From the IMG/VR virus record IMGVR_UViG_3300030060_004475, positions 1-31,365 of that record: DNA of 31,365 nucleotides; one strand, 5' to 3'. Of the stretch, positions 1,511-22,127 are shown one piece after another (positions within the stretch are counted from its first letter, which is position 1; every line of letters begins with the position of its first letter). The stretch comes from a virus. The position numbers were made by a program, and so were the translations under genes. The notes under the pieces were generated by a model, which made no database searches, was not told the origin of the DNA, and was given only the letters and a program-made list of their open reading frames with translations.

Positions 1511-1530
1511 TTAAAATACGTTATTATAAT
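1511..1530 (+). promoter_or_regulatory. Putative late promoter: ACGTTAT element 13 nt before ATG
   Basis: ACGTTAT at 1518-1524 is followed by TATAAT and the ATG at 1531. Upstream is TTTAAAAT. The same heptamer occurs at the identical distance before the genes at 4224, 20118 and 22128. It leads the scaffold-decoration-capsid group. The spacing leaves almost no room for a 5' leader. Confidence 0.65.
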
Positions 1531-2145
1531 ATGAATCAATCAACGGATATCTTAGAGAAGTTAAAAACTCTATTAGGAATGCAGGTCACGCTTGAGGAGA
1601 TTGAACTTGCAAATGGCACTATACTTGAAGCTGAGGAATTCACCAAAGGGAATGAAGTCTTTATAAAAAACGAAGATGAGGAAAAAGTACCTTTACCAGA
1701 AGGATTGTATGATTTAGCTGAAGGAAAAAAACTCGTTGTAATAGACGAAGGTATAATTGATGAAATCAAAGAAATTAATCAAAAAGAAGAAAATAGTATG
1801 GAAGATCAAACTTTAAGTACTGAACAAGTTTTAGAAGAAAACGAAGACAAAAAAGAGGAAATGCAGTACGCAAAAAAAGAAGATGTTGACAGACTTGAAA
1901 AAGATGTCAAGGAAATTAAAATGATGGTCGAAAAAATGATGGATCAAAAAGAAGAGAAAAAGGAAATGGCAAAAGTAACTGAAGAGGTTGAGGAACTTAA
2001 AGAAGAGTTATCAAAACCTGCTGCAACTGCTATCAAACATTCTCCAGAAAGCAAACCTGCTGTTAAGCAAGTTCTTCATTCACAAAACAGATCATTAACA
2101 ACTTTGGATAGGGTAATGGCAAGAATATCAAAAATTAATAATTAA
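1531..2145 (+). CDS. Putative capsid scaffold / head assembly protein
   Basis: A 204-residue, highly charged protein with no Cys. The N-terminal part (1-85) is beta-like with LANGTILEAEEF and PLPEGLYDLAEGKKLVVIDEG. From about 95 to 160 there is a Glu/Lys-rich helix likely to form a coiled coil (KKEDVDRLEKDVKEIKMMVE). The C-terminus ends in a basic tail (SLTTLDRVMARISKINN). Charged composition, coiled coil, and position between the capsid protease and the capsid genes are typical of tailed-phage scaffolds. The assignment is by context and composition, not by a catalytic motif. It is preceded directly by the ACGTTAT element and is followed at 2 nt by the next gene. Confidence 0.6.
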   Translation: MNQSTDILEKLKTLLGMQVTLEEIELANGTILEAEEFTKGNEVFIKNEDEEKVPLPEGLYDLAEGKKLVVIDEGIIDEIKEINQKEENSMEDQTLSTEQVLEENEDKKEEMQYAKKEDVDRLEKDVKEIKMMVEKMMDQKEEKKEMAKVTEEVEELKEELSKPAATAIKHSPESKPAVKQVLHSQNRSLTTLDRVMARISKINN

Positions 2146-2147
2146 AA

Positions 2148-2558
2148 ATGGCAACAACAACAACAATTTCAAATGACGTCACGCGTATTTTTCCAAAATA
2201 TGAGGCGATCACAGTTGGCTCTTCTTTGACAAGTGCCGATAGTGGAAAGGTTTTTAAAGTGAGTGGTAGCGGTGGTACAGTTACCTTACCTGCACCAAAA
2301 GCAGGATTTAACGCAAGATTTGTGACAACAGGTGCAATGGATACTGCTAATACAGTAATCGCAGGTGGTACTGCAGATAAAATGGAAGGAAGTTTAATTG
2401 TAGCTGGGGCCGTTGTAGACGTAGATGCAGCTGATCAGATAAATTTCGTTCACGGAAGTTCAAATCTTGGTGACTTTGTGGATATTTGGTCTGATGGTAC
2501 AAATTACTACGTATTTGGAAACGCATTAACAAGTGGTGGAATAACAGCAACAGGATAA
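2148..2558 (+). CDS. Putative capsid decoration / head fibre-like protein
   Basis: A 136-residue Gly/Ala/Thr/Val-rich protein without charged clusters, predicted to be nearly all beta (SGKVFKVSGSGGTVTLPAPK, DFVDIWSDGTNYYVFGNAL). Its place directly upstream of the capsid gene, its size and its composition fit a small head decoration or head fibre protein. The first codons (ATGGCAACAACAA) are the same as those of the next gene. It starts 2 nt after the scaffold stop, so it is part of the same operon. No enzymatic motif is present. It could instead be a minor structural protein. Confidence 0.55.
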   Translation: MATTTTISNDVTRIFPKYEAITVGSSLTSADSGKVFKVSGSGGTVTLPAPKAGFNARFVTTGAMDTANTVIAGGTADKMEGSLIVAGAVVDVDAADQINFVHGSSNLGDFVDIWSDGTNYYVFGNALTSGGITATG

Positions 2559-2570
2559 AATTTATAAAAA

Positions 2571-3518
2571 ATGGCAACAACAAATTCAATAACAACTACG
2601 TATGCGGGCGAGTTTGCAGGTGAATACATCTCCCCTGCTTTGCTTTCAGGAATCACACTTGATTCAGGTGGGGTAACAATAAAGCAAAACGTAAAGTTTA
2701 AGGAAGTAATTAAAAAAGTAGATACAAACGCAATAATTAAGGACGCTACGTGCGACTTCGATCCTACGTCAACGGTAACGATTACCGAGCGTATTTTACA
2801 ACCAGAATTTCAGCAAGTAAACCTTCAATTGTGTAAGGATGATTTTCGTTCAGATTGGGAAGCAGCGTCAATGGGTTTTAGCGCCTTTGATTCTCTACCC
2901 CCAAAATTTGCAGATTTCTTGATTGGTCACGTTTCAGCAAAAGTTGCAGAAAAAACTGAGCAGAATCTTTGGAGAGGAACAACAGCAACAAATGGAGAGT
3001 TTGATGGATTAACAACTCAAATTGCAGTTGATGCAGGTTTGCCAACAGGACAAGAAGTAAGTGGCACAACGGTGACTTCGAGCAATGTAGTTGGGCAGCT
3101 AGGCAGTATCGTTGATGCGATACCTTCAGCAGTTTTATATAAAGAGGATTTACATATATATGTTGCAACAAATATATTTCAAGCGTATAAAAGAGCGCTT
3201 GGGGGTTTTGCAAGTAACGTAGGTGCTGCAGGTGTAAGAGATTTAGGGCCAAATCAAGATATTAATATTGATATGTTTGATGGTATTAAAATATTTAGAG
3301 CACCTGGCCTTTCTGACAATACAGCCGTGGCTGCAGAAAAATCCAACCTTTACTTTGGCACAGGCTTGATGGCGGATACAAACGAGGTGAAAGTGATTGA
3401 TATGGCAGACATCGATGGCTCGCAGAATGTAAGAATTGTAATGCGATTTAGTGCAGGATCACAATATGGAAATATTGAAGATATTGTTACTTATGGAATT
3501 ACAAATTCAGCTAACTAA
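2571..3518 (+). CDS. Major capsid protein (HK97-fold expected)
   Basis: A 315-residue protein following protease, scaffold and decoration genes, the usual place for the major capsid protein. Features include an N-terminal arm (AGEFAGEYISPALLSGITLD), a central region with a helix (FADFLIGHVSAKVAEKTEQNLWRG), and a C-terminal beta region with DNEVKVIDMADIDGSQNVRI-type strands before YGNIEDIVTYGI. Size is normal for HK97-type shells. It is spaced 12 nt from the upstream gene with TAAAAA before the ATG, and an intrinsic terminator follows within 20 nt, consistent with a very highly expressed last cistron. The fold itself is inferred from context and not proven by a motif. Confidence 0.75.
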   Translation: MATTNSITTTYAGEFAGEYISPALLSGITLDSGGVTIKQNVKFKEVIKKVDTNAIIKDATCDFDPTSTVTITERILQPEFQQVNLQLCKDDFRSDWEAASMGFSAFDSLPPKFADFLIGHVSAKVAEKTEQNLWRGTTATNGEFDGLTTQIAVDAGLPTGQEVSGTTVTSSNVVGQLGSIVDAIPSAVLYKEDLHIYVATNIFQAYKRALGGFASNVGAAGVRDLGPNQDINIDMFDGIKIFRAPGLSDNTAVAAEKSNLYFGTGLMADTNEVKVIDMADIDGSQNVRIVMRFSAGSQYGNIEDIVTYGITNSAN

Positions 3519-3536
3519 GAGTATTTAATAACATAA

Positions 3537-3572
3537 GGGGTGGGTGTGGTTTGAACCTGCCTACCCTTTTTT
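3537..3572 (+). terminator. Intrinsic terminator after the capsid gene
   Basis: GGGTGGG (3538-3544) can pair with CCTACCC (3560-3566) with one G-T pair, enclosing an inner GGTT/AACC pairing, and is followed by T6. It ends the protease/scaffold/capsid transcript. Confidence 0.75.
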
Positions 3573-3584
3573 AATAAGAAGACT

Positions 3585-4145
3585 ATGGCGTGTAATTTAA
3601 CAAAAGGACGTAAGGAACCGTGCAAGGATTCGGTAGGTGGCATAAAAGCGGTGTTTTTTATAGAACATCCTGCAACCGCAACATTTGATAGTACAGATAC
3701 TGATGTGATTGAAGATTTGCAAACATCTGCAGGTGGGGGTGTGACAGCTTTTAAATATGAAGTAAAAGGCAATAGTAGTTTTGAACAAGCAATAACATCT
3801 TCAAGAGAAAATGGAACAACGTTTTTCGATCAAACATTGAATTTAACACTACATAAATTAACAGTTCAAGATCATAAAGAAATTAAACTGATATCTTTTT
3901 CTCGACCTGTGATTGTGGTTCAAGATTATAATGATAACGCTTTTGTAATGGGCAGAGAGCACGGAAGTGATGTAAATGGTGGCACAATTGTAACTGGTGC
4001 AGCTATGGCTGATTTAAGCGGATATACCCTGACATTCAACGCACAAGAATTGCAACCTGCAAACTTTTTAGAAGGAGCAACAGGAGCAAATCCATTTGCA
4101 GGAATGACAACAAGTGTTACAATAACGGAAGGCACAAACTCTTAA
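3585..4145 (+). CDS. Putative major tail (tube) protein
   Basis: A 186-residue protein starting MACNLTKGRKEPCKDSVGGI, with FFIEHPATATF, an ENGTTFFDQTLNLTLHKL strand pair and SRPVIVVQDYNDNAFVMGRE. I recall this pattern (CxL-T.G....C.DSVGGIK, ENGT.F..QT, V.D.NG....GR..G.D, ELTF) from abundant structural proteins of Bacteroidota phages, where it fits a tail tube subunit. It forms its own transcription unit, bracketed by terminators at 3537-3572 and 4167-4193, as expected for an abundant virion protein. No ACGTTAT element precedes it, so it may rely on read-through or an unrecognised promoter. A neck or decoration role is the main alternative. Confidence 0.5.
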   Translation: MACNLTKGRKEPCKDSVGGIKAVFFIEHPATATFDSTDTDVIEDLQTSAGGGVTAFKYEVKGNSSFEQAITSSRENGTTFFDQTLNLTLHKLTVQDHKEIKLISFSRPVIVVQDYNDNAFVMGREHGSDVNGGTIVTGAAMADLSGYTLTFNAQELQPANFLEGATGANPFAGMTTSVTITEGTNS

Positions 4146-4166
4146 TTTATAAAGAAGGGGTTTTAA

Positions 4167-4193
4167 GGGGAGCATTCGTGCTCCTTTTTTTTT
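4167..4193 (+). terminator. Strong intrinsic terminator with TTCG tetraloop
   Basis: GGAGCA (4169-4174), TTCG loop, TGCTCC (4179-4184), then T9. Perfect stem. It separates the tail tube gene from the portal operon, whose ACGTTAT element begins 17 nt after it. Confidence 0.9.
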
Positions 4194-4201
4194 CAAAAGA
4201 T

Positions 4202-4223
4202 TTAAAATTTACGTTATATTAGT
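4202..4223 (+). promoter_or_regulatory. Putative late promoter: ACGTTAT element 13 nt before ATG
   Basis: TTTAAAATTT then ACGTTAT at 4211-4217, then ATTAGT and the ATG at 4224. It lies directly downstream of the terminator at 4167-4193, so a new promoter is needed here. Same heptamer and same distance as at 1518, 20105 and 22115. Confidence 0.7.
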
Positions 4224-4571
4224 ATGATGATACTTTCTACAACAGCAAGTGCGCAAACAATAAAAATCATACCTAGGAATTACGTCACGTCAGCTACGAT
4301 GAAATTGCGTGATGATACAGCAAATACGGAGGTTTCTTATAGCGTGTCGGCAAGTACTGATAAAAATTATTTGCAAATAAGCCAAGCATTATCTTTAAAA
4401 GAAGGCAGATATTATGATCTCACAATCTTGGATGGCAGTAATGTAATTTATAAGGATAAAGTTTTTTGTACTGCTCAAACGGTAAATCAGGCAAATAATG
4501 ATTATTATAAAATAAATAATGGTGTGTTTACAACTGACACATCTTTTGACAATGACTTTATAGTATTATGA
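4224..4571 (+). CDS. Conserved-looking small structural protein, portal operon leader
   Basis: A 115-residue beta-rich protein without recognised motifs for activity (TIKIIPRNYVTSATMKLRD, YYDLTILDGSNVIYKDKVFC, NNDYYKINNGVFTTDTSFDN). I recall similar proteins immediately upstream of portal genes in flavobacterial phages, so a head-neck or virion role is plausible, but I cannot name the function. It starts at the first of two adjacent ATG codons, the one placed 13 nt after ACGTTAT. Its stop overlaps the portal start by 4 nt (ATGA), so the two are translationally coupled. Confidence 0.6.
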   Translation: MMILSTTASAQTIKIIPRNYVTSATMKLRDDTANTEVSYSVSASTDKNYLQISQALSLKEGRYYDLTILDGSNVIYKDKVFCTAQTVNQANNDYYKINNGVFTTDTSFDNDFIVL

Positions 4572-6448
4572 ATGATATCAGAGTTGTAAATCTATCAAAC
4601 TACACAACGCCTAAAATCACTGAAGAAAGGCAGAAAGATTGGGTGAGATATGGTGAGGATAATGATTATTACAGTTATCTGATAGGCAGATATAATGGCA
4701 GCCCTACAAATAATGCAATAATCAATGGTTTATCAGAAATGATATATGGCAAGGGTTTAGATGCAACTAACAGCGCAGAAAAGCCAGATGCTTATGCGAA
4801 GATGAAAACTTTATTTACTGCAAATTGTGTTAGAAAATTAGTTTTAGATTTAAAACTTATGGGGCAATGTGCTATGCAAATAATATATTCTAAAGACAGG
4901 AAAAGCATTGCTAAAGTTGAGCATTTTCCTATAGAAACTTTAAGGATGGGAAAAGCTGATGATGGTGAAATAAATGATTATTATTATCATCCTGATTGGA
5001 AAAAAATCAAACCAAGCGAACAGCCTGAGAGAATCCCTGCTTTTGGCAAATCAAATGAAGCAATAGAAATTTATTGTGTGAAGCCGTATCGTGCAGGATT
5101 TTATTACTATTCACCTGTAGATTACCAAGGCGGTCTACAATATGCAGAATTAGAAGAAGAGATTGCAAATTATCATTTGAATAATATTAAAAATGGTCTT
5201 GCACCTAGTATGCTACTGAATTTCAACAATGGCATACCGAATGAGGAAGAAAGGCAATTAATTGAAAATCGTATTTATGAAAAATTTAGTGGCACTTCTA
5301 ATTCAGGAAAATTCATTCTTTCTTTTAATGATAACACAGATACTCAAGCAAGTATTGAGCCTGTGCAATTATCAGATGCGCATTCACAGTATGAATTTTT
5401 ATCAAATGAATCTGCAAGGAAAGTATTAGTGAGTCACAGAATTGTAAGTCCAATGCTATTTGGTATCAAAGATCAAACAGGCTTAGGAAATAATGCTGAT
5501 GAATTAAAAACAGCTTCTATTCTAACAGATAATATTGTTGTGAAACCATTTCAAAATTTATTAATTGAAGCTTTTAATCAAATACTTGCTTTTAATGATA
5601 TTTCTTTGAGGTTGTATTTTAAAACACTTCAGCCTTTAGAATTTACTGATCTTGAAAATGTAGATGATGAAGAAACAAAAGAAGAAGAGACAGGAGTAAA
5701 AATGGCATCTCAAAAGGTTTCTGAAGATGTTGCAATAATAGATGATAGATTGGCTTATTCTACACAAGAAAAAGCAGAAGAAATTGCAAAGGATTTAGGT
5801 TGTGAAGGATTTCATACGCACGATTATGAAGGACAGACTTGGTATATGCCCTGCAAAGAACATAATTTAAATGATGTTGCAGATGATTTAATTGCGCTTG
5901 GTGAATCGGATGATGATTATGCTGATTGGGAGCTTGTTGATGAAATGGAAGTAAATTATGAAATGGAAGAAAAGCTAGATAAAATGATCGGTTTGGCTTC
6001 TGTTGGTCAAGCATTGCCTAATAGGAAATCTAAACAAGATAAAGAAATTGATGGTGTTCAATATAGGGTGCGTTATAGATATAGCCCACTTAAAGCAACG
6101 ATGAGAGATGGCAAAAATGTTTCTAGGGATTTCTGTAAGAAAATGATAGCTGCAAATAAATTATATAGAAAAGAAGATATTATAAAAATGGGTGAGCGGG
6201 TTGTAAATGCAGGATGGGGACCGAGAGGTGCTAACACTTATTCAATTTGGAAATACAAAGGCGGAGGATCGTGTCATCATAAATGGCTCCGACAGACATA
6301 TAAAGGCATTTTTGATAAAAGCATTGCAAAAGAAAAATCCAATATATCCACAAATAAAAGTGAAAGAGAAGGATATAGAGTTAGAAATCCTAAAGAGGTT
6401 GCAATGAAGCCTAAAGATATGCCGAACAAAGGGTTTTTACCAAAATAA
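4568..6448 (+). CDS. Portal protein with long C-terminal extension
   Basis: 626 residues. The first about 370 residues look like a tailed-phage portal: WVRYGEDNDYYSYLIGRYNGSPTNNAIINGLSEMIYGKGL, a long wing/stem region, and SHRIVSPMLFGIKDQTGLGNNADELKTASIL followed by the helix NIVVKPFQNLLIEAFNQIL. The dodecameric portal is the DNA gate and head-tail junction. After an acidic linker (about 370-385) come two extra segments: about 390-450 with EGFHTHDYEGQTWYMPCKEH, and about 490-600 with YRVRYRYSPLK, FCKKMIAANKLYRKEDIIKMG, GANTYSIWKYKGGGSCHHKW. The extension has Cys/His positions that could bind metal and is not needed for a normal portal; its role is unknown. Typical portals are about 400-550 residues. 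Confidence 0.85.
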   Translation: MNDIRVVNLSNYTTPKITEERQKDWVRYGEDNDYYSYLIGRYNGSPTNNAIINGLSEMIYGKGLDATNSAEKPDAYAKMKTLFTANCVRKLVLDLKLMGQCAMQIIYSKDRKSIAKVEHFPIETLRMGKADDGEINDYYYHPDWKKIKPSEQPERIPAFGKSNEAIEIYCVKPYRAGFYYYSPVDYQGGLQYAELEEEIANYHLNNIKNGLAPSMLLNFNNGIPNEEERQLIENRIYEKFSGTSNSGKFILSFNDNTDTQASIEPVQLSDAHSQYEFLSNESARKVLVSHRIVSPMLFGIKDQTGLGNNADELKTASILTDNIVVKPFQNLLIEAFNQILAFNDISLRLYFKTLQPLEFTDLENVDDEETKEEETGVKMASQKVSEDVAIIDDRLAYSTQEKAEEIAKDLGCEGFHTHDYEGQTWYMPCKEHNLNDVADDLIALGESDDDYADWELVDEMEVNYEMEEKLDKMIGLASVGQALPNRKSKQDKEIDGVQYRVRYRYSPLKATMRDGKNVSRDFCKKMIAANKLYRKEDIIKMGERVVNAGWGPRGANTYSIWKYKGGGSCHHKWLRQTYKGIFDKSIAKEKSNISTNKSEREGYRVRNPKEVAMKPKDMPNKGFLPK

Positions 6449-6454
6449 AATATT

Positions 6455-6955
6455 ATGGCAACAGCATTATTTATTTCAAGGACAGATTTAGTTAAAAATT
6501 CAATCATTGATGGAAACGTTGATACTGATACTTTTATCCAGTTTATCAAACTTGCACAGCAGATTCATATACAAAATTATTTAGGAACGGATTTATATAA
6601 TAAAATTAGTGCTGATATTGTAGCAAGTAACCTTTCAGGCGCATATTTAACGCTTGTTAACAGTTATATTCAGCCTATGTTAATACATTATGCAATGGCA
6701 GATTATTTGCCCTTTGCTGCATATAAAATAAAGAATGGGGGTGTTTTTAAACATACAAGTGAAAATTCAGAGACTGTTGATAAAACAGAAATAGATTATC
6801 TAGTAAATAAGCAAAGGGACTTTGCAGAATATTACACAAGAAGATTTATTGACTTTATAACATTCAATATAAGCAGTTATCCGGAATATAATACAAATAA
6901 CAATGAGGACGTTTATCCTGATAAAGATGCACTTTTTCACGGATGGGTGTTATGA
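6455..6955 (+). CDS. Putative head-tail connector / adaptor protein
   Basis: A 166-residue, mostly helical protein (VDTDTFIQFIKLAQQIHIQNYLGTDLYNKI, NSYIQPMLIHYAMADYLPFAAYKI, QRDFAEYYTRRFIDFI). Size, helical content, the LAQ...YLG..LY pattern and its position 6 nt after the portal gene fit the gp6/gp15-type head completion adaptors that dock under the portal. No catalytic motif is present. Its stop overlaps the start of a small basic ORF (ATGA). Confidence 0.6.
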   Translation: MATALFISRTDLVKNSIIDGNVDTDTFIQFIKLAQQIHIQNYLGTDLYNKISADIVASNLSGAYLTLVNSYIQPMLIHYAMADYLPFAAYKIKNGGVFKHTSENSETVDKTEIDYLVNKQRDFAEYYTRRFIDFITFNISSYPEYNTNNNEDVYPDKDALFHGWVL

Positions 6956-7056
6956 AAAACTTTAAACCGAAGAAAAAAAACGTTATTAAGTTAGAGCGTT
7001 ATTTAAAAAAAGTAAATTATGCCAGCACCGATAACAGATTGGTACGGAAGAAATGA
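6952..7056 (+). CDS. Small basic peptide overlapping neighbouring genes
   Basis: A 34-residue ORF whose ATG overlaps the connector stop (ATGA) and whose 3' end overlaps the next gene by 38 nt. The product is Lys/Arg-rich (MKNFKPKKKNVIKLERYLKK). ATGA coupling is the normal junction style in this genome, and this is its only argument. It might be a chance ORF in an A-rich stretch. It also contains an ACGTTAT (6980-6986), not placed 13 nt before a start. Confidence 0.35.
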   Translation: MKNFKPKKKNVIKLERYLKKVNYASTDNRLVRKK

Positions 7057-7225
7057 CATTGGATGGGGGCAAACCTATGAAGTTTGTTATGCAGGAAATG
7101 TAAATGAAGCGAATTATTGGGGTTATATTTACCCTTTCAATTTTGATGGAAGCGTTTTTACATCTGATAGTTCATTAATAAAAGCAGATAATTCAAGAAA
7201 TACAGCAGATCAGACACAATTTTAA
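7019..7225 (+). CDS. Small hypothetical virion-region protein
   Basis: A 68-residue aromatic-rich protein (MPAPITDWYGRNDIGWGQTYEVCYAGNVNEANYWGYIYPF). No membrane segment or known motif. It starts within the preceding small ORF, 10 nt before the fibre gene's leader, and is co-directional with structural genes. I do not recognise it. Its composition (Trp, Tyr, Gly, Asn) is that of a virion surface or fibre-associated protein, but this is inference only. Confidence 0.5.
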   Translation: MPAPITDWYGRNDIGWGQTYEVCYAGNVNEANYWGYIYPFNFDGSVFTSDSSLIKADNSRNTADQTQF

Positions 7226-7234
7226 ATTTATAAT

Positions 7235-7807: not shown

Positions 7808-7809
7808 TT

Positions 7810-9936: not shown

Positions 9937-9937
9937 T

Positions 9938-10015: not shown

Positions 10016-10016
10016 T

Positions 10017-10549: not shown

Positions 10550-10567
10550 AACTGTAGGTAATACTTT

Positions 10568-10987: not shown

Positions 10988-10988
10988 A

Positions 10989-11927: not shown

Positions 11928-11942
11928 ATTAAAAAAATTTTA

Positions 11943-11950
11943 TATATTTG
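11943..11950 (+). promoter_or_regulatory. Host-type promoter -7 element TATATTTG
   Basis: TATATTTG matches the Bacteroidota -7 consensus TAnnTTTG and lies 25 nt before the ATG at 11976 and 16 nt after a terminator. The -33 region (near 11920) is only T-rich and overlaps the terminator T-run. Likely early promoter for the replication operon. Confidence 0.6.
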
Positions 11951-11975
11951 TAAAGAATTTAAAAACAATTATAAA

Positions 11976-12274: not shown

Positions 12275-12278
12275 AAAA

Positions 12279-13020: not shown

Positions 13021-13031
13021 ATTTTTGGTAA

Positions 13032-13940: not shown

Positions 13941-14131
13941 TAGAGTTTAGATTAGGAAATAATATTATAAATACACAAATTATTCCGTTATATGGAGTTT
14001 TTTTTGGCGTGGTTTATTATAATCCAAATTTAGAACCTGATTTTGATCCTGTTGATGAGGATGATTTTTTTCATCAAATTACATTTGCATTTTTTATAGT
14101 TGGCTTACATTTTACAATTTGGAAACTGTAA
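13937..14131 (+). CDS. Small conserved-looking hydrophobic/aromatic protein
   Basis: 64 residues from a TTG start (13937) that overlaps the ATPase stop (TTGA); no in-frame ATG is near. Product MIEFRLGNNIINTQIIPLYG, then YYNPNLEPDFDPVDEDDFFHQITFAFFIVG. I recall very similar short proteins (PLYG...YYNP.LEP...HQ.TF.F...G.H.T.W) in flavobacterial phages next to replication genes. One C-terminal hydrophobic helix may insert in the membrane. Function unknown. Confidence 0.55.
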   Translation: MIEFRLGNNIINTQIIPLYGVFFGVVYYNPNLEPDFDPVDEDDFFHQITFAFFIVGLHFTIWKL

Positions 14132-14601
14132 TTGAAAAAATATATAACAAACATAAACTTTGGGTTTCTATTGTAAAAAAATTCGGATGCAATAGCGATA
14201 CTGCAGAAGATATTGTGCAAGAAATGTATTTAAGAATGATTGTGTATTTAAAAAAAACTGATAATGATATAAGCTTTGGAGAAGATATAAACACTTTTTT
14301 TATCCAAAGAACATTGAATTCTATATTCATTGATCATATAAGAAAAGAAAAAAGGAAAGAAACAGTAAATTTTGATGAAGAAGCTTATCAAATAGCACAG
14401 CATTATGATTATAACTATTCAAACATTTATGAAAAGATGCAAGAAAGTTTAAAAAAAATGTACTGGTTTGATAAAAAAATCTATGATATAATTGAAAGCG
14501 GTGTAAAAATATCAGATTTGGCAAAAAAAACAACGATTCCTTATTATACTATTTATAACACTTATCAAAAGGTAGTTGAAGAACTTAAAAAAGAAATATG
14601 A
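14119..14601 (+). CDS. Phage-encoded sigma-70 family (ECF-like) RNA polymerase sigma factor
   Basis: 160 residues. Region 2: FGCNSDTAEDIVQEMYLRMIVYL (about 22-44) and NTFFIQRTLNSIFIDHIRKEKRK (58-80), matching the D.A.DI.Q.....A...R..A.D..R..KR pattern of sigma region 2. Region 4: an HTH at about 120-157 (ISDLAKKTTIPYYTIYNTYQKVVEEL). It should bind host core polymerase and direct it to phage promoters. TTG start, overlapping the previous gene by 13 nt; stop overlaps the next ATG. It is a good candidate to recognise the ACGTTAT elements (inference). Confidence 0.75.
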   Translation: METVIEKIYNKHKLWVSIVKKFGCNSDTAEDIVQEMYLRMIVYLKKTDNDISFGEDINTFFIQRTLNSIFIDHIRKEKRKETVNFDEEAYQIAQHYDYNYSNIYEKMQESLKKMYWFDKKIYDIIESGVKISDLAKKTTIPYYTIYNTYQKVVEELKKEI

Positions 14602-14968: not shown

Positions 14969-15356
14969 GCTTGAAGAAGCAACTATTTTAATTCTTAATG
15001 TTTTTAATGATTGGGAACTTGAGTGGAAGGGTGATGGATATAATCATTGCGATGCTGTGGGTAAAACACCAAAAGGATTTACTTGTGCGATGGAAATGAA
15101 ATTCAGAGCAAAATATTATGAAACTAAAATGCTTGAAAAATACAAGTATGATAGGTTGATGGAAATGGATGTTGAGGTGCATTTGTATTTTGTTGCTGAT
15201 CCAAAAGGGAATTATATGTTTTGGCTTGATAACTTAGAAATGCCAGAAGTTAAAAATGTGAGATGTCCTTCAAGCACGTTATGGTCAAAAAAAAAGGAAA
15301 ATAAAGAAGTGTATATGTTAGAAGAAAATCAAGCAGCAGAGGTAAATATTTATTAG
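14940..15356 (+). CDS. Putative PD-(D/E)XK-type nuclease-like protein
   Basis: 138 residues from ATG 14940 (an ATG at 14931 is also possible). The central part has HCDAVGKTPKGFTCAMEMKFR (about 36-56), an Asp followed by E-M-K spaced like the PD-(D/E)XK nuclease core, then a helix (YETKMLEKYKYDRLMEM) and a strand (VEVHLYFVADPKGNYMFW). A small endonuclease or resolvase for DNA recombination is plausible; the active site assignment is mine and unverified. It starts inside the upstream gene and ends the operon before the promoter at 15382. Confidence 0.45.
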   Translation: MNKGINQIHRLEEATILILNVFNDWELEWKGDGYNHCDAVGKTPKGFTCAMEMKFRAKYYETKMLEKYKYDRLMEMDVEVHLYFVADPKGNYMFWLDNLEMPEVKNVRCPSSTLWSKKKENKEVYMLEENQAAEVNIY

Positions 15357-15381
15357 ATTTTTTTAATTTAAAATATCTTAT

Positions 15382-15389
15382 TATATTTG
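15382..15389 (+). promoter_or_regulatory. Host-type promoter -7 element TATATTTG
   Basis: TATATTTG (TAnnTTTG consensus) within the only gap of this region, 26 nt before the ATG at 15415. Upstream the sequence TTTAATTTAAAATATCTTATTATA is close to the 1511-1526 sequence except that the ACG of ACGTTAT is TCT here, and a true TATATTTG follows. Leads the methyltransferase/exonuclease operon. Confidence 0.6.
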
Positions 15390-15414
15390 AATATAATTTA
15401 AAACAATAAACAAG

Positions 15415-15756
15415 ATGAGCGACAAATATCTTTTTTATGAAAAAATTGATGCAGTAAAAACTGCAACTATTGATGCTGATCTTGCGTATGTTTTGACTGC
15501 TTTTAATAAACTTGTTAAAGAGAATCCTCAAAATGAAATGTATAAGGAAATAACAAAATGTTTAGTAAATATATTTGGCATTGTTTCTTCTTATCATCTT
15601 GATAGACAATTTTATCATCAAGCTATAAATGAATATAGATCAGATAAATTAAGAGCAATTGAAAGAGCAAGAAGGGCTGAAAAATTAGAGGAGAAACCTA
15701 AAAAAAGCCTTGATGATTTGACCGAAAATTTAAAAAATAAATTAGAACAATTATGA
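15415..15756 (+). CDS. Hypothetical helical protein
   Basis: 113 residues, almost all helical (KIDAVKTATIDADLAYVLTAFNKLVKE, a strongly charged C-terminal helix YRSDKLRAIERARRAEKLEEKP). First gene after the TATATTTG promoter. Its stop overlaps the methyltransferase ATG (ATGA). Possibly a DNA- or protein-binding adaptor; not recognised. Confidence 0.55.
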   Translation: MSDKYLFYEKIDAVKTATIDADLAYVLTAFNKLVKENPQNEMYKEITKCLVNIFGIVSSYHLDRQFYHQAINEYRSDKLRAIERARRAEKLEEKPKKSLDDLTENLKNKLEQL

Positions 15757-16892
15757 ATGCTTTAGAGTTAAGAGATAACGCAAAACAACAACTAGCAGAA
15801 ATCAAAACAATAGAATCAGGAGTTGAATATCTAAACAAAGTTAAAGCGATTGAGGTTTGGGCAAGAGCAGAAAAGAAAGATGCTGAATTACAAAACATAA
15901 TAGCAGAACAAAAGTTAAGAACACAAAAAATATTAGGTGGTTTATTGAAAGAAGAAGTAAAAGTTGGTAATCCTCAATTGTCACAAGCAAGTACAATTGG
16001 ATTAAATCAATTTGGGATAAGTAGAAATGGATCTTCAGCATTTCAAAAAATAAATTGGTTTGCAGAAAACTATCCAAAGGAATTTGAACAAGAAATAGCA
16101 ATAGCAAAAGAAGAAACAAATAAGAGAATAGAACTTACTACAATTAGAATGTTAAAAGTTGCTAAACATTATGATAAACTTGAAAAAAGAAAAAAACAAG
16201 GTGAAGTAATAAAAACAATTAATATATCAGATAAAATAAAAAATGGAAATAGTTTAGAAATACTTAAAACACTTCCAGATAATTGTATTGATATCGTTTT
16301 AACTGACCCTCCTTATGGCATAGATTATAAAAGCAATAGAAGTGAATTTAAAAATTCAATTACAAGCAAAGGTTTATTAAATGACAATAAAAAAGACGCA
16401 TTATTTTTATTAGATGAAACTTGTAAAATATTATTAGATAAAACATCAGAAAATTCACATTTATATTTTTTTTGCAGTTGGTCTGTATTTAGTTCTTTTG
16501 AATCTATAATTAGTAAATACTTTACAATTAAAACTCCAATAGTTTGGAACAAAGGAAATAAAGGATCAGGGGATTTAGAAAATGATTGGGGAAATCAAAC
16601 TGAATTAATTATTTACTGTACTAAAGGGAAAAAAAAGATAAACTACAGAAAAGGCAACGTTATATTAGTTCCTAAAGTACATAGCAGCAAATTGATACAT
16701 CCAACACAAAAACCAATAGAACTTATAAAAGAAATATTAGAAGTAAGTGCTTTAAAAAATGATTTTGTTGTTGATCCTTTTATGGGTTCAGGCAGCACAA
16801 TAAAAGCCTGTAATGAATATGGTTTAAAAAGTTTAGGCATAGAATTAGATGAAGAAATGTTTTTAATTGCAAATAATTATATAAATGAATGA
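15753..16892 (+). CDS. DNA methyltransferase, DPPY (N6-adenine type, beta class) with helical N-terminal domain
   Basis: 379 residues. The catalytic domain (about 160-379) has motif IV TDPPYG (184-189), a substrate region with IVWNKGNKGSG and WGNQTELIIYCTKGKKK, HPTQKP (316-321), and motif I DPFMGSGST (341-349). Motif IV before motif I is the beta order; DPPY suggests N6-adenine. Residues 1-150 form a separate helical region (ELQNIIAEQKLRTQKILGGLL) that I recall from phage regulatory/replication proteins. The enzyme likely modifies phage DNA to escape host restriction. The stop overlaps the next gene by 8 nt. An ACGTTATATTAGT copy at 16657-16669 is coding here and lacks a following ATG. Confidence 0.85.
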   Translation: MNALELRDNAKQQLAEIKTIESGVEYLNKVKAIEVWARAEKKDAELQNIIAEQKLRTQKILGGLLKEEVKVGNPQLSQASTIGLNQFGISRNGSSAFQKINWFAENYPKEFEQEIAIAKEETNKRIELTTIRMLKVAKHYDKLEKRKKQGEVIKTINISDKIKNGNSLEILKTLPDNCIDIVLTDPPYGIDYKSNRSEFKNSITSKGLLNDNKKDALFLLDETCKILLDKTSENSHLYFFCSWSVFSSFESIISKYFTIKTPIVWNKGNKGSGDLENDWGNQTELIIYCTKGKKKINYRKGNVILVPKVHSSKLIHPTQKPIELIKEILEVSALKNDFVVDPFMGSGSTIKACNEYGLKSLGIELDEEMFLIANNYINE

Positions 16893-17382
16893 ATACAGAC
16901 ATCTTGAAATTAAATTTAAAAATAAAATAAAAGAACATTTTAATAAAGCAATACCAAATTTTTTAAATGAACTTTCTGTTGTAAAATTATCTAACACAGA
17001 AGAGGACACAAAATTTTCTTTTGATCTTATATTTGAAATGAATGTGAAACTTTCTGTAAGAATAAGAGAAAACAAATATAAATTATGGAATGATTTAACA
17101 ATAAGGTCAAAAAATAAGGGATATAAAACTGAATTACATAAAATAATAGATGGTAAAGGGCAGTTTTATTTTTATGCTTATATGACAGAAGATGAAAACA
17201 ATTTAGAAAAAATATATATATGTGATGTTAAAACTATAAGAAACTTATATAAAAAAAATACTTATAATAAAGAAAGATATAATGGAGATGGTACAGCATT
17301 AATTGGATTTAATTTTAAAGATATAGAAGAAGAGTCAAAAAAAAATAATTATTTATATTATAAATCAAGAAAAAATAAATGA
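16885..17382 (+). CDS. Hypothetical protein paired with the methyltransferase; possible nuclease-like fold
   Basis: 165 residues overlapping the methyltransferase end. Central pattern SVRIRENKYKLWNDLTIRSKNKGYKTELHKI, then GQFYFYAYMTEDENN and IYICDVKTIRNLYKK. I recall phage proteins with RIR..KY....DFTIR....G..TE..KI..G...Y.FY; D and E...K spacing is reminiscent of PD-(D/E)XK enzymes, but this is weak. Coupling to an adenine methyltransferase could mean a restriction-modification pair; unproven. The C-terminus may be frameshifted: skipping one base in A6 (17370-17375) continues the frame for 27 codons, ending with KPIDFYGGN at a TAA near 17459. Confidence 0.55.
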   Translation: MNEYRHLEIKFKNKIKEHFNKAIPNFLNELSVVKLSNTEEDTKFSFDLIFEMNVKLSVRIRENKYKLWNDLTIRSKNKGYKTELHKIIDGKGQFYFYAYMTEDENNLEKIYICDVKTIRNLYKKNTYNKERYNGDGTALIGFNFKDIEEESKKNNYLYYKSRKNK

Positions 17383-17459
17383 ACTAAATAAATATAATAC
17401 AAGAAATTACAGTTATAAACATATTCAAAAACCTATTGATTTTTATGGAGGAAATTAAA

Positions 17460-18278
17460 ATGTTTAATGGTGACATATATTTAAAAGATGTTCTATTAGA
17501 AAAATTAAAAGATGATGATTTCTATTATAATAAAATAGATAGATTTGTTGCGCTTAGTGCATCATCGATCAAAGATTTAGTCCCACCTAAAAGCCCACGT
17601 TTGTGGTATTATGGAGGATTGAAAAAAGATAATGAAGCTGCGTTAAGGGCAGGAACTTTATTTCATAATGCTATACTAGAGCCTGATAAATATGAAAAGT
17701 TGCATTTTAGCAATTTGAAATCTAGGGGTGCTGCAGGATTTAAAAAACAAGAACAAGAGATTGATGATGTTCTTTATACAGACTCAGAAAAACAATTCAA
17801 TGAAGTTCTAGTAAATGCTTTCAAAAAAAACGACAGAGCAATGAGTGCAATAAAAGATGCTAAATTTGAGCAGCCTTTAGCAGGATATATTAGCAATTTA
17901 CCTTTCAGGGGTAAATGTGATATTATTACCTCAGAGAATAAAATCATAGATTTGAAGACAACAACAAAAGAAATGTCAGATTTTAAATATACAGCAGATA
18001 GTTTTGGGTACGATGTGCAATGTTATGTTTATTCTAAATTATTAGGTGTTGATTCAAGTGGCTTTGAATTTATTGTGATATCAAAAAATAGTTTAGATAT
18101 TGGGTTTTTTCCTGTTGATAAATCATTTTTAGAACAAGGGAAAGAAAAGTTTGATGCTGCTGTGGATGTTTATAAAAATATATTTTGGGGTAAAAGTAAA
18201 AAAGATATTGAAAATACTTTAACGCAAATGACGCATCAAGAAACCTTGACCGCAAAAAAGAAATATTATGATAGATGA
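17460..18278 (+). CDS. RecE / exonuclease VIII-like PD-(D/E)XK exonuclease
   Basis: 272 residues from ATG 17460 (ATG 17445 and TTG 17436 are alternatives; 17460 has GGAGG 8 nt upstream and an A-rich leader). Core motifs: ALRAGTLFHNAILEPDKY with His69, RGKCDII with Asp154, IIDLKTTTK with Asp164 and Lys166, and GYDVQCYVY with Gln187. This is the RecE/DUF3799 exonuclease arrangement (H...D...DxK...Q). It should resect double-stranded ends for single-strand annealing recombination. A dedicated annealase was not recognised; NinG and the OB-like protein may participate. Confidence 0.75.
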   Translation: MFNGDIYLKDVLLEKLKDDDFYYNKIDRFVALSASSIKDLVPPKSPRLWYYGGLKKDNEAALRAGTLFHNAILEPDKYEKLHFSNLKSRGAAGFKKQEQEIDDVLYTDSEKQFNEVLVNAFKKNDRAMSAIKDAKFEQPLAGYISNLPFRGKCDIITSENKIIDLKTTTKEMSDFKYTADSFGYDVQCYVYSKLLGVDSSGFEFIVISKNSLDIGFFPVDKSFLEQGKEKFDAAVDVYKNIFWGKSKKDIENTLTQMTHQETLTAKKKYYDR

Positions 18279-18726
18279 AAAAGTAAAAGATCAAAAGTAT
18301 CTCAATGAAACAGGAGCGAAGAGATATGCAGAAACCATAGAAATTCTAACAGGTATAAATGTGTTTCATAAATCAAGATTTAGAGAATATGTTTACAAAA
18401 GAAGTGTTTTGAATTATGCTTTAAAAACAAGTCACAATTGGGGTTTATCTAGGATATCAAGGCTTTACGTTGATAATGGTTATGATGGATATGATCACGC
18501 AACTGTGTGGCACAGCTTAAAAATGTTTGAAATTTATGTGAAATACGAGCCTAGTCTATTAGATTTGTTTAAAAATTTATGCAAAAAAGAAAAAGATTTA
18601 GGTATTTATAAAACATTTATCTTTAATAAAATGCAAGGTTTAAAATTTGAAGAGTTAGAAAAAGTAGAATTGTTGGTAAATCGTTATTATAATAACGCAG
18701 ACAAGAATGAAGATAGAGATAAATAA
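18268..18726 (+). CDS. DnaA domain-IV-like DNA-binding protein
   Basis: 152 residues. Region about 33-85 resembles the DNA-binding domain IV of DnaA: R..REYVYKRSVLNYALK (helix before the HTH), LSRISRLYVDNGYDGYDHATVWHSLKMFE (helix-turn-helix with the DHATVxHSLK signature similar to DHTTVLHA.RK). The AAA+ ATPase domain is missing. It may bind a phage origin or act as a transcription or anti-DnaA factor. The start overlaps the exonuclease by 11 nt and its stop overlaps the ParB-like gene by 20 nt. Confidence 0.65.
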   Translation: MIDEKVKDQKYLNETGAKRYAETIEILTGINVFHKSRFREYVYKRSVLNYALKTSHNWGLSRISRLYVDNGYDGYDHATVWHSLKMFEIYVKYEPSLLDLFKNLCKKEKDLGIYKTFIFNKMQGLKFEELEKVELLVNRYYNNADKNEDRDK

Positions 18727-19162
18727 AATAAAAGCAAATACTAATAATCCTAGAGTAATAAAAGATTATAAGTTTAAAAAACTTGTTCAATCAATTAAGG
18801 AGTTTCCAGAAATGCTTGAAAAAAGACCTATTGTTGTTGATGAAGATATGATTGTTCTAGGTGGAAATATGCGATTAAAAGCGTGTATTGAAGCGGGTTT
18901 ATCTGAAGTGTATATAAATATTGCTGAGGGATGGACAGAGGATCAGAAAAAAGAGTTTATTATAAAAGACAATATAAGTTTCGGTGAATGGGATTGGGAT
19001 ATATTAGCTAATGAATGGAATGTAGATGGCCTTAATGATTGGGGTTTAGACTTGCCCCCTATGTTTGATGAGCCAAAAGAACAAAAAAAAACTGATGAGA
19101 CTATTTTGTGTGATACTTGCGGATTAGAATTGAAATTTAAACTTACAAACAATCAAAAATGA
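18707..19162 (+). CDS. ParB N-terminal-domain-like protein
   Basis: 151 residues. ParB/Srx-type N-terminal domain: NTNNPRVIKDYKFKKLVQSI (11-30), EMLEKRPIVVDED (35-47), VLGGNMRLKACIEAG (50-64), which is the GGN(M/R)R nucleotide-binding signature. No ParB HTH domain follows; the C-terminus ends with WGLDLPPMFDEP and CDTCG. Phages often place such proteins beside DNA methyltransferases. It may be a small nuclease/CTPase-like modification or regulatory factor. Its stop overlaps the C5 methyltransferase ATG (ATGA), indicating a functional pair. Confidence 0.7.
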   Translation: MKIEINKIKANTNNPRVIKDYKFKKLVQSIKEFPEMLEKRPIVVDEDMIVLGGNMRLKACIEAGLSEVYINIAEGWTEDQKKEFIIKDNISFGEWDWDILANEWNVDGLNDWGLDLPPMFDEPKEQKKTDETILCDTCGLELKFKLTNNQK

Positions 19163-20085
19163 AATTAAATTTGTTGGATTTATTCAGCGGTATAGGGGGT
19201 TTTCATTTGGGTCTAGAAAGGTCAGGTTTTCAAATAAGCTCTCACTTTTCAGAGATAGATAAAAATGCAATAGACGTTTATAAATACAACTTTAAAAATT
19301 CAAACTATGTCGGATCAGTTACAGATGTTCAACAAAAAAGATTACCAAAAATTGATGCCATCACTTTTGGAAGTCCTTGCCAAGATTTTAGTGTGGCTGG
19401 AAAACGTAAAGGTTTGCAAGGAAGTAAAAGCTCCCTTATTAGTGAAGCAATTCGACTCATCTGCGAATGCAGACCAAGTTTTTTTATATGGGAAAATGTT
19501 AAAGGAACTTTCTCCTCAAACGTTGGCGAAGACTTTTGGGCAATTATCCAAGCCTTTACCAACATTGGGGGTTATCGACTTGAATGGCAACTGCTTAATT
19601 CAAACTGGTTTTTACCCCAAAACAGAGAGAGAATCTACCTTGTCGGATATCTTAGAGGAAAAAGTAGAAGACAAGTATTTCCTATCGGAGAAAGCAACAC
19701 AAAGATTAATGAGTTACAAAGACAATGTACAAATACCATTGCAGCAAGAAGAAGGGATGGCCAGGGATCGTATGTTATTGAAAGTAAACTCAATGCACAA
19801 GTCAAAGCAGTCATAGGGGACTTTAGATTTGATGAAGGATACAGAGAGAGATTTAATGGGGAATCTCCAACTCTTCATTTAAAATGTGGTGAAGATATTA
19901 TAGTTAATAAAATTAGAAGACTAACACCAGTTGAATGTGAAAGGCTCCAAGGGTTTCCTGATAATTGGACACAAAAAGGAGTTAATGGGCCTATATCAGA
20001 CTCACAGAGATACAAAATGTGTGGTAATGCTGTGACTGTTGATGTAGTGAAAGAGGTTGCAAAAAATATTTTAAAAATCTTATAG
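19159..20085 (+). CDS. dcm: DNA (cytosine-5) methyltransferase
   Basis: 308 residues with all main C5-methyltransferase motifs: I LLDLFSGIGGF (5-15), IV GSPCQDFS with catalytic Cys74, VI WENVKG (111-116), VIII QNRERIYLVG (154-163), IX RLTPVECERLQGFPD (254-268), X GNAVTV (289-294). The target recognition region (about 165-250) includes TIAARRRDGQGSY. Probably modifies phage DNA against host restriction. The last cistron of the replication/modification operon; its upstream partner is ParB-like. Confidence 0.9.
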   Translation: MKLNLLDLFSGIGGFHLGLERSGFQISSHFSEIDKNAIDVYKYNFKNSNYVGSVTDVQQKRLPKIDAITFGSPCQDFSVAGKRKGLQGSKSSLISEAIRLICECRPSFFIWENVKGTFSSNVGEDFWAIIQAFTNIGGYRLEWQLLNSNWFLPQNRERIYLVGYLRGKSRRQVFPIGESNTKINELQRQCTNTIAARRRDGQGSYVIESKLNAQVKAVIGDFRFDEGYRERFNGESPTLHLKCGEDIIVNKIRRLTPVECERLQGFPDNWTQKGVNGPISDSQRYKMCGNAVTVDVVKEVAKNILKIL

Positions 20086-20104
20086 TTTTTTAATTGTAAA
20101 AATT

Positions 20105-20117
20105 ACGTTATATAAAT
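20105..20117 (+). promoter_or_regulatory. Putative late promoter: ACGTTAT element 13 nt before ATG
   Basis: ACGTTAT at 20105-20111, then ATAAAT and ATG at 20118; upstream TTGTAAAAATT. It lies in the 32-nt gap between the modification operon and terminase. Same arrangement as at 1518, 4211 and 22115. Confidence 0.7.
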
Positions 20118-20465
20118 ATGAACAAAACCGAACAGCATAAAAAAGCAATTTTAGAGGCATTAGAAAAATCTTTAGGTGTGGTCACTACAGCTTGTAAACA
20201 AGTTGGGATAGGTAGAACGCAATTTTATGAATGGTTGAAAGATTCAGATTTTAAAAAAAGGGTTGATGATGTTCAAAACATTGCTTTGGATTTTGCAGAA
20301 TCACAATTGCATAAGCAAATTAGGAATGGAAATACTGCAGCTACTATATTCTATCTTAAAACCAAAGGTAAGTTGAGAGGATATGTAGAAAGGCAAGAGA
20401 TAACAGGTGCTGAAGGTTATCCTAATAAAATTGAATTGAATATTATTGAAAATAATGAGGATTGA
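20118..20465 (+). CDS. Terminase small subunit
   Basis: 115 residues. HTH at about 15-40 (SLGVVTTACKQVGIGRTQFYEWLKDS), then a helical region with FAESQLHKQIRNGNTAATIFYLKTKGKLRGY (about 60-95), a pattern typical of phage terminase small subunits (phBC6A51-like), and an acidic end. It recognises the phage DNA for packaging initiation. Start preceded by the ACGTTAT element; the terminase large gene starts inside its last 11 nt. Confidence 0.75.
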   Translation: MNKTEQHKKAILEALEKSLGVVTTACKQVGIGRTQFYEWLKDSDFKKRVDDVQNIALDFAESQLHKQIRNGNTAATIFYLKTKGKLRGYVERQEITGAEGYPNKIELNIIENNED

Positions 20466-21609
20466 TACAAATGTTGTATGTAAACATTTAATCTATTCCA
20501 AAAAAAAAATTATAATAGAGCAGGGCGGTACAAGGTCAGGCAAAACTTATAACATATTATTGTGGATCATATTTTATTATTGCGCTGAACATACAGGCAA
20601 GGTGGTCACGATATGCAGAAAAACTTATCCCTCACTTAGAACCTCAGCGATGAGGGATTTTATAACAATCCTTAGAGATCATAATATCTATCAAGAAGAA
20701 AATCATAATAAATCTTCTTCAGAGTATAAATTGAAAGGTAATCTTATTGAATTTATATCTTTAGATCAACCACAAAAAGTAAGGGGCAGGAAGCGTGATT
20801 TGTTATTTATAAATGAAGCAAATGAACTTTATTGGGAGGATTGGCAGCAACTCATCTTTAGAACACAGGGAAGAATAATATTGGACTATAACCCATCTGA
20901 GGAGTACCATTGGATATATGATAAAGTAATTCCTAGAGAGGATGCAGATTTTTTTCAAACAAATTACAAGGATAATCCATTTGTAGAGGATACGATCAAA
21001 AAAGAAATAGAAAGGCTCAAAGAAACAGATGAAGGTTATTGGCAGATTTACGGATTGGGCGAAAGGGGTATTTCTAAAACAACTATTTTTAAATATGTTG
21101 AGGTTCAAAATATTCCTGATGATGCTAAATTTCTTTCTTATGGTGTTGATTATGGATTTACAAACGATCCCACAGCAATTGTGGGCGTATGGATCAAAGA
21201 TTATATGCTATATATTAAAGAGTTTGTTTATCAAACAATGATGACCACAATTGATATTCATAAAAAGCTACAGAATATGGGGGTATATAGAGAGCCTATT
21301 TTTGGAGATTCAGCAGAGCCGAGATTGAATGAAGAACTACGAAGGATGGGATGGAATATAAAAGGAAGCATAAAAGGTAAGGATAGTATAAACGCAGGGA
21401 TTGATCTTTTGAAAAGATATAAGTTGCACGTGACTTCTGATTCTAACAATGTGATAAATGAATTTAGAAATTATAGATGGAAACAAGATAGATCAGGAAG
21501 AACATTAAACGTTCCAGAAGATAGGGCAAACCATACTGCAGATGCAATTCGATATGCTGCTTATTCAATGTTGAGCAGACCAAATTTCGGAAAATACGCA
21601 ATATCCTAG
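20455..21609 (+). CDS. terL: Terminase large subunit
   Basis: 384 residues from ATG 20455 (TTG at 20446 is less likely). ATPase: Walker A GGTRSGKT (24-31), Walker B LLFINEANE (116-124), coupling region YNPSEEYHW. Nuclease: SYGVDYGFTNDPTAI with Asp232, FGDSAEPRLNEEL with Asp285, and NHTADAIRYAAY with Asp363. This is the motor-nuclease that packages DNA through the portal. Length is usual for PBSX/Terminase_3-type large subunits (about 400). Overlaps the small subunit by 11 nt. Confidence 0.9.
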   Translation: MRIDTNVVCKHLIYSKKKIIIEQGGTRSGKTYNILLWIIFYYCAEHTGKVVTICRKTYPSLRTSAMRDFITILRDHNIYQEENHNKSSSEYKLKGNLIEFISLDQPQKVRGRKRDLLFINEANELYWEDWQQLIFRTQGRIILDYNPSEEYHWIYDKVIPREDADFFQTNYKDNPFVEDTIKKEIERLKETDEGYWQIYGLGERGISKTTIFKYVEVQNIPDDAKFLSYGVDYGFTNDPTAIVGVWIKDYMLYIKEFVYQTMMTTIDIHKKLQNMGVYREPIFGDSAEPRLNEELRRMGWNIKGSIKGKDSINAGIDLLKRYKLHVTSDSNNVINEFRNYRWKQDRSGRTLNVPEDRANHTADAIRYAAYSMLSRPNFGKYAIS

Positions 21610-21630
21610 AAATAAAAGTTATTAAAATAT

Positions 21631-21661
21631 TTTGATAAGTTATTTTTTTTTATTATATTAA
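21631..21661 (+). promoter_or_regulatory. Host-type promoter candidate: TTTG-N19-TATATTAA
   Basis: TTTG (21631-21634), 19-nt spacer, TATATTAA (21654-21661), close to the Bacteroidota TTTG / TAnnTTTG pair with normal spacing. It lies in the 100-bp gap before the gene at 21710, and predicts a leader of about 40 nt. Confidence 0.4.
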
Positions 21662-21709
21662 TATAAAGATTAAGTTCTTTAACGAAATAATTAATTAAAA
21701 CAATTAAAA

Positions 21710-22000
21710 ATGGAAAAAAATTTTAATGGATGGACAAATTATGAAACTTGGAAGGTGAATCTTGAATTCTTTAGTAAGAATTATGAAATGTATATTGAAG
21801 TTTTAGATTTTGAAGAAGATTCACAAAGCAAAGAACATAAAATCTGTGATAGGCTTGAAATGGATTTTGTAAACTTTATAGATGAAAAAGTAGATGATCC
21901 TGTTTTATCTTCTATATGTTATCATTTTGCAAGTAAAATAAATTATTATGAAATAGCTTTGCATATTGTTGAAGAGCATTCAGAAGATAAAGTTCAATAA
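21710..22000 (+). CDS. Small NGWTNYETW-family protein (DUF7249-like)
   Basis: 96 residues. The N-terminus MEKNFNGWTNYETWKVNLEF matches a widespread phage/plasmid family with N.GWTNYETW.VNLW. The rest is acidic and helical. It has its own promoter-like sequence upstream and a terminator downstream, so it is a single-gene unit inserted between terminase and tail genes, as moron-like genes are. Function unknown, though counter-defence or regulatory roles have been suggested for accessory units of this sort (inference). Confidence 0.7.
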   Translation: MEKNFNGWTNYETWKVNLEFFSKNYEMYIEVLDFEEDSQSKEHKICDRLEMDFVNFIDEKVDDPVLSSICYHFASKINYYEIALHIVEEHSEDKVQ

Positions 22001-22067
22001 AAATTATTATATTTGAAAGGATTTAGGTATAAATCATAATTTTTTCATTTGGTTTTTAGTGATTAGT

Positions 22068-22099
22068 AAGGGGAACAGAAATGTTCCTCTTTTTTTTTA
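22068..22099 (+). terminator. Strong intrinsic terminator before tail genes
   Basis: AAGGGGAACA (22068-22077), GAAA loop, TGTTCCTCTT arm with one G-T pair, followed by a T-run to 22098. Its core is GGAACA/TGTTCC. It closes the 21710-22000 unit and precedes the tail operon promoter by 16 nt. Confidence 0.9.
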
Positions 22100-22114
22100 A
22101 ATTAGCATAGATAA

Positions 22115-22127
22115 ACGTTATTATATT
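22115..22127 (+). promoter_or_regulatory. Putative late promoter: ACGTTAT element 13 nt before ATG
   Basis: ACGTTAT at 22115-22121 followed by TATATT and the ATG at 22128. It sits right behind the terminator 22068-22099, so new initiation is required here. Leads the tail operon (22128-31128 and onward across the join). Confidence 0.7.

Follow-up and report, generated by a model that had tools for sequence, protein, structure and literature searches.

The virus record IMGVR_UViG_3300030060_004475 (IMG/VR), analyzed here over 31,365 nucleotides (nt; this whole stretch is called the window), carries a short element, ACGTTAT, fused to the start codons of genes that head its late modules. Comparison with related phages makes it very likely that this late box forms the -10 element of a promoter recognized by an extracytoplasmic function (ECF)-like sigma factor that the phage itself encodes, with late mRNAs starting at or near the first AUG, and leaderless initiation of the late genes is strongly implied. 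With somewhat less assurance, it is likely that leaderless mRNAs, made through such a sigma factor and start-codon-fused promoter, serve virion gene expression in a large group of marine Bacteroidota phages, and that sigma and promoter have undergone at least four joint switches, providing a natural code for the reading of -12/-11 by sigma region 2.4. The features on which this proposal is built are:

1518..1533, + strand: proposed late promoter fused to the start codon of gene 1531, ACGTTATTATAATATG, with an A-tract at 1501-1504 (-30 to -27)
4165..4193 (stem 4165-4188), + strand: hairpin resembling a terminator, with a T-run, immediately before the 4211 promoter (pattern match)
4211..4226, + strand: proposed late promoter fused to the start codon of gene 4224, serving this gene and portal, ACGTTATATTAGTATG, with an A-tract at 4195-4198
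14119..14601, + strand: ECF-like sigma factor of 160 amino acids with a TTG start, built of sigma2, linker and sigma4; proposed reader of the late promoters, with region 2.4 FIDHIRKE containing D-x-x-R
20105..20120, + strand: proposed late promoter fused to the start codon of the terminase small subunit, ACGTTATATAAATATG, without an A-tract at -30 to -27
22068..22098 (stem 22068-22091), + strand: hairpin resembling a terminator, with a T-run, immediately before the 22115 promoter (pattern match)
22115..22130, + strand: proposed late promoter fused to the start codon of gene 22128, ACGTTATTATATTATG, with AAA at 22099-22101

As the original prediction had it, ACGTTAT lies exactly 13 nt ahead of the ATG at all four sites (1518/1531, 4211/4224, 20105/20118 and 22115/22128), where the ATGs open reading frames of 204, 115, 115 and 217 codons. 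ACGTTAT-N6-ATG occurs four times in the window against a mean of 0.02 in shuffled sequence, and none of 100 shuffles reached four. Bare ACGTTAT occurs eight times (2.4 expected), every copy on the + strand. The further copies at 1104, 6980, 15275 and 16657, which had been placed inside genes, stand with two corrections, the third being at 15276 and the 6980 copy lying outside the listed open reading frames (ORFs). Portal and terminase are identified by PHROGs matches (portal at 4568-6448, terminase small subunit at 20118, large subunit at 20446), while gene 22128, from a family of unknown function, heads the module after terminase, and a protease-like protein is encoded at the start of the window. 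Ahead of sites 4211 and 22115 the reported terminators do exist as pattern matches, each with a stem and a T-run; the 1518 and 20105 sites have no terminator ahead.

A search of related phages, proposed as a check on the element, found ACGTTAT at the same distance from ATG recurring widely among uncultured relatives of the Nonlabens phages P12024S and P12024L. Among 80 viral contigs collected by a terminase scan alone, 60 copies stand 13 nt before an ATG, and any other distance (7 to 59) accounts for at most 13 copies. Orthologues of gene 22128, found by protein similarity and independently of the motif, have a GTTATA-type core at the same place in nearly all cases. In a pattern scan of viral contigs, 81 of 93 sites opened an ORF of at least 60 codons; a scan of bacterial genomes for ACGTTATATANNTATG gave such an ORF for 24 of 80 among the matches listed, a chance-like proportion that says nothing firm about host use. 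Three sigma scans enlarged the set to 372 loci, in which 214 of 216 strict copies ([ACT]CGTTATN5TATG) stand at the heads of six gene families and the remaining two are singletons. These families, namely gene 22128 (107 copies), a ParB-like gene (41), the protease-like gene at the window start (31), gene 1531 (17), gene 4224 (12) and the terminase small subunit (6), head morphogenesis modules, and the inner genes of the modules lack the element. T-runs precede 96% of the gene 4224 orthologues and 80% of the 22128 orthologues that carry the element, and few members of the other families.

The spacing also points to the start base. With the A of AUG taken as +1, CGTTAT falls at -12 to -7, where a -10 hexamer normally lies, and in a profile of 201 promoters the frequencies are 0.93 for A at -29, 0.96 for A at -28, and 0.97 each for T at -1 and A at +1. 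Across 415 distinct upstream sequences of the six families, the distance from C to ATG is 12 nt in 164 of 219 CGTTA[TA] hits, a share biased upward because a family was chosen only if the element stood at distance 13 in some of its members. A distance of exactly 13 nt is the commonest arrangement and not a rule, as in relatives the ATG can lie as much as 14 nt further downstream. In 44 hits with the ATG shifted by 1-14 nt, T-1/A+1 is retained relative to the box in 33, against a 16% background of TA dinucleotides; many of these stretches are AT runs, which puts the true background above 16%, and shifted sites without AT runs, such as CGTTATACTATTATACAAT and CGTTATACAAGTATAACATT before ATG, fit T-1/A+1 as well. 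Since T-1/A+1 usually stays with the box, box and start base move as a unit with which the AUG usually coincides, and the element behaves as a promoter carrying its start site, not as a translation signal. The earlier suggestion that transcription begins at or near the ATG is therefore well supported by comparison, through spacing conserved in relatives and a start dinucleotide mostly retained when the ATG moves.

The alternative that survives best accepts a promoter of the phage sigma and places the true start elsewhere, either because the listed AUG is not the first codon or because the mRNA has a proper leader. Start-site choice may vary by 1-3 nt, and leaders of 1-14 nt are expected in some relatives. 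A -10 hexamer followed by six bases is, on the other side, the usual distance to a start, the -1 T and +1 A are 97% conserved, and homology among the gene 22128 orthologues begins at residue 1. We regard this alternative as a minor possibility, roughly a one-in-eight prospect.

The protein encoded at 14119-14601, overlooked in the original prediction, is the probable reader of the late boxes. It matches Pfam Sigma70_r2 (E 3.9e-6, 27.0 bits, cut-off 24), as do 30 of 50 members of its family at E 0.01, and a PHROG sigma factor family (E 4.9e-8). An AlphaFold2 model, for which the input alignment held the window sigma and the fetched loci only, reached a predicted local distance difference test (pLDDT) of 90.6 with a predicted template modelling score (pTM) of 0.49, leaving the mutual placing of the two domains uncertain; helices span 4-79 and 100-159, with a low-confidence linker between them. 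The best Foldseek matches of the model are ECF sigmas. VIA gave Z 10.2 to Mycobacterium tuberculosis SigE, together with matches to SigR and sigmaE region 2, and placed residues 98-160 on sigmaE region 4 bound to DNA (2h27) with a root-mean-square deviation of 1.6 over 63 residues; a Z near 10 is not decisive by itself for a helical protein, and here sequence profile and fold concur. In the profile match to M. tuberculosis SigE, FLDMVRRR lies opposite the FIDHIRKE stretch, so that D and R fall in region 2.4. The layout of sigma2, short linker and sigma4, without sigma1.1 or sigma3, is that of an ECF sigma.

A homologue of this sigma is present in 25 of 25 terminase loci with more than 8.8 kb upstream, 4.7-8.1 kb before terminase. 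Searches with tblastn found nothing beyond P12024S/L when the window sigma was run against phage isolates, and no match when one member of its family was run against all phage records. Some related loci (L055, L061, L063, L064, L066, L078, L034, L338, L343, L353 and L402) have a second, divergent sigma-like paralogue, which retains D-x-x-R even where the main sigma has lost it.

The link between sigma and box comes from their covariation. In 153 related marine phage loci, scorable after two further scans, the late core is CGTTAT, TATTAT, TGTTAT, TTATAT or AGTTAT (displaced CGTTATATA sites were not classed as TT), and where late genes lack CG the sigma region 2.4 is altered. CG occurs with D-x-x-R in 95 loci, every D-x-x-R locus has the CG core, and D-x-x-R is found in 0 of 56 non-CG loci. 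Instead, TA goes with Q-x-x-K/N (18 loci), TG with N-x-x-I/L (15), TT with N-x-x-K (22) and AG with D-x-x-K (1). No other columns of the sigma alignment are as closely associated with core class as those of D and R, and each of the 21 loci with at least two scored late genes uses one single core. A tree computed with the 2.4 columns left out shows five changes of core class and four between C and non-C. For L381-like sigmas, T at -12 and A at -11 had been fixed as the expectation before new loci were opened, and these bases were found. By this comparison, the CGT-type -10 box appears to be specified by region 2.4, as in ECF systems. In the TG class (L028, L029, L041), the element reads ATGTTATA at the protease-like gene and TTGTTATA at the 22128 orthologue, with -13 variable and -12 to -7 fixed. 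Loci L440-L456 encode a very divergent sigma with QYVRTNSKTKYY replacing region 2.4 and have CCTATTTAATAGT before the 22128 orthologue, likely another core class.

An A-tract at -28/-29 appears to complete the late promoter. At -30 to -27 it lies nearer the -10 box than the AAC-type -35 of canonical ECF promoters, and P12024S has AAAACAAA as its upstream element. An AT-rich -28 signal has been reported for Flavobacterium promoters (PMC6847099), and the A-tract may be either this signal or a displaced -35.

The sequence before the ATG had also been likened to the host -7 element, in Flavobacterium TAnnTTTG lying 4-5 nt ahead of the start site (PMC6847099). This likeness is not supported: TAnnTTTG is absent from the four late sites, which have CGTTAT at -12 to -7 instead. 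Host-type elements are found elsewhere in the window:

11943..11950, + strand: host-type -7 element TATATTTG, located 25 nt ahead of ATG 11976 and likely the early promoter for the operon to which the sigma gene belongs
15382..15389, + strand: host-type -7 element TATATTTG, 25 nt before ATG 15415 of an early/middle gene

By the published geometry, the 11976 and 15415 mRNAs would have leaders of about 20 nt (PMC6847099). No + strand terminator matches lie between 11976 and the sigma gene, so a single operon can run through the latter. Another host-type TATATTTG falls within 22008-22098, directly after gene 21710-22000 and followed by about 80 nt without an ORF up to the terminator, a possible small RNA just before the 22115 promoter. 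Scans of the window for Escherichia coli sigma70-type promoters gave results close to those from shuffles.

The element, its spacing, the gene classes, the sigma gene with its predicted fold and the covariation are observed here, and they suggest the following course. The host sigma, using TAnnTTTG promoters, would transcribe the early operon containing the phage sigma gene. The phage sigma would bind host core RNA polymerase and direct it, presumably late in infection, to promoters with an A-tract near -28 and CGTTAT at -12 to -7. Region 2.4 would read -12/-11, D-x-x-R reading CG, Q-x-x-K/N TA, N-x-x-I/L TG and N-x-x-K TT, with D and R probably in direct contact with these bases. Transcription would start on an A separated from the hexamer by six bases, normally the A of AUG, making the late mRNAs leaderless; some relatives would have a leader of up to about 14 nt. 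Virion proteins would then be translated from leaderless mRNA.

Several points weigh against this proposal. The start base is a prediction from sequence comparison, and the share of hits at the preferred distance is inflated by the choice of families noted above. Two loci have CG without D-x-x-R, namely L621 (D-x-x-K) and L597 (odd local sequence), and L440-L456, with their CCTATTTA box and divergent sigma, fall outside the classes. Independent switches are few, the four C/non-C changes being too few for a sign test. The A-tract lies closer to the -10 box than a canonical ECF -35 would and may be an AT-rich upstream signal instead, and site 20105 lacks it. Finally, some relatives carry the second sigma-like paralogue.

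A host primary or host ECF sigma could read the element, leaving the phage sigma no role. Host ECF sigmas likewise read CGT-type -10 boxes, and TAnnTTTG elements are present in the window; the late core is nevertheless unlike TAnnTTTG, its variants follow the changes in region 2.4 of the phage-encoded sigma throughout the group, and the scored late promoters of each phage share a single core in all 21 loci. We consider reading by a host sigma very improbable. Still less credible is a translation signal, a ribosome or protein binding site fixed to the AUG. Its near-constant distance to the AUG would suit such a signal, and Flavobacteria, which have no Shine-Dalgarno sequence, use upstream context such as A at -3 (PMC6847099). 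Yet the element stands only at late module heads and is absent from the genes inside, T-1/A+1 stays with it when the AUG shifts, two of the four sites directly follow terminators, and the core variants track a sigma factor. Equally hard to credit is the idea that the element is the operator site of an activator or repressor made by the phage: a regulator could well use a short conserved box, and the protein encoded at 18268-18726 has a weak DnaA_C-like helix-turn-helix match (E 0.011), but each promoter has a single copy, the register to T-1/A+1 is fixed, the box covaries with sigma region 2.4, and a palindromic operator was ruled out, as the four sites share no dyad symmetry.

Among the closest known systems is that of the Nonlabens (Persicivirga) phages P12024S and P12024L, the only related isolates found. 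Their portal is 40% identical to that of the window, and an orthologue of gene 22128 is present; P12024S was recognized through these two genes. P12024S, which infects a flavobacterium and whose gene starts were annotated by others, likewise encodes a Sigma70_r2 protein (gp33), and its late starts have CGTTAATATA boxes, with CGTTA at -12 of six annotated starts and at -11 of a seventh (0.09 expected at one offset). These phages differ in their CGTTAA core and AAAACAAA upstream element, and gp33 has weak pairwise similarity to the window sigma (E 0.001-0.004). Bacterial ECF sigmas (E. coli sigmaE, SigW, SigR and M. tuberculosis SigE, SigH and SigL) share the sigma2-sigma4 fold and CGT-type -10 box, whereas the window sigma is phage-borne, has 10-21% identity to solved members and has no identified anti-sigma.

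Phage T4 gp55 is similarly a phage sigma-like protein with a short, -10-only late box. The T4 late box is TATAAATA, however, its mRNAs are leadered, and gp33 and the gp45 clamp are needed; no co-activator was identified for the window phage. The phiEco32 sigma is ECF-type. In phiEco32 and 7-11, a phage sigma diverts the host RNA polymerase so that it uses a short conserved promoter ahead of the middle and late genes (PMC4331800). That promoter is TAATGTATA-like and the hosts are enterobacterial, with no start-codon fusion described there (PMC4331800); the late boxes CGTTAT, TATTAT, TGTTAT and TTATAT do not fit the TAATGTATA-like motif. In phiKZ and AR9, late promoters are also very short motifs at the start site, TATG with G as the start in phiKZ and AACA-N6-TA/G in AR9, but they are used by a phage multisubunit RNA polymerase and AR9 leaders span 26-491 nt (PMC5312081), in contrast to the host polymerase with a phage sigma proposed here.

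Two weaker candidates for late promoters occur in the window:

6980..6993, + strand: candidate additional late promoter whose start is displaced, ACGTTATTAAGTTA, with an A-tract at -29 to -27, 26 nt before ATG 7019; weak
18681..18694, + strand: candidate weak late promoter of the ParB-like gene 18707, TCGTTATTATAATA, leader 13 nt

The first sits after portal, in the 63-bp gap between ORF 6455-6955 and ORF 7019-7225, and 6980-7019 is possibly a fifth late promoter; P12024S has one at the same place (5412). As to the second, the ParB-like genes of relatives often carry the element at the start codon, and 18681-18707 contains TCGTTATTATAATAACG with a perfect 16-bp palindrome, CGTTATTATAATAACG, 25 nt ahead of the gene. 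Within ORF 29207-29362, CGTTATATAAGTA with an A-tract (29264-29276) has a predicted start base without an ATG. The early/middle region also holds two DNA methyltransferase genes, 15753-16892 and 19159-20085 (PHROGs matches).

A system of ACGTTAT promoters and phage ECF sigmas with leaderless late genes is not described in the literature searched, which covered few subscription journals. Phage sigmas as such are already known; what we did not find in that literature is start-codon fusion across a late regulon combined with sigma and promoter switching jointly in nature. In hundreds of contigs, most late-module heads have the A of AUG as predicted start base, and the box is a simple marker of late modules in uncultured marine phages. 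The natural switches of core and region 2.4 likewise offer a ready test set for the reading of the -10 element by ECF sigmas. In Flavobacterium johnsoniae, 87% of mRNAs with assigned promoters have leaders longer than 10 nt (PMC6847099). If the proposal is true, the ribosomes of a phylum without Shine-Dalgarno sequences and with mostly leadered mRNAs would build virions from leaderless mRNAs, which would be unusual for the phylum.

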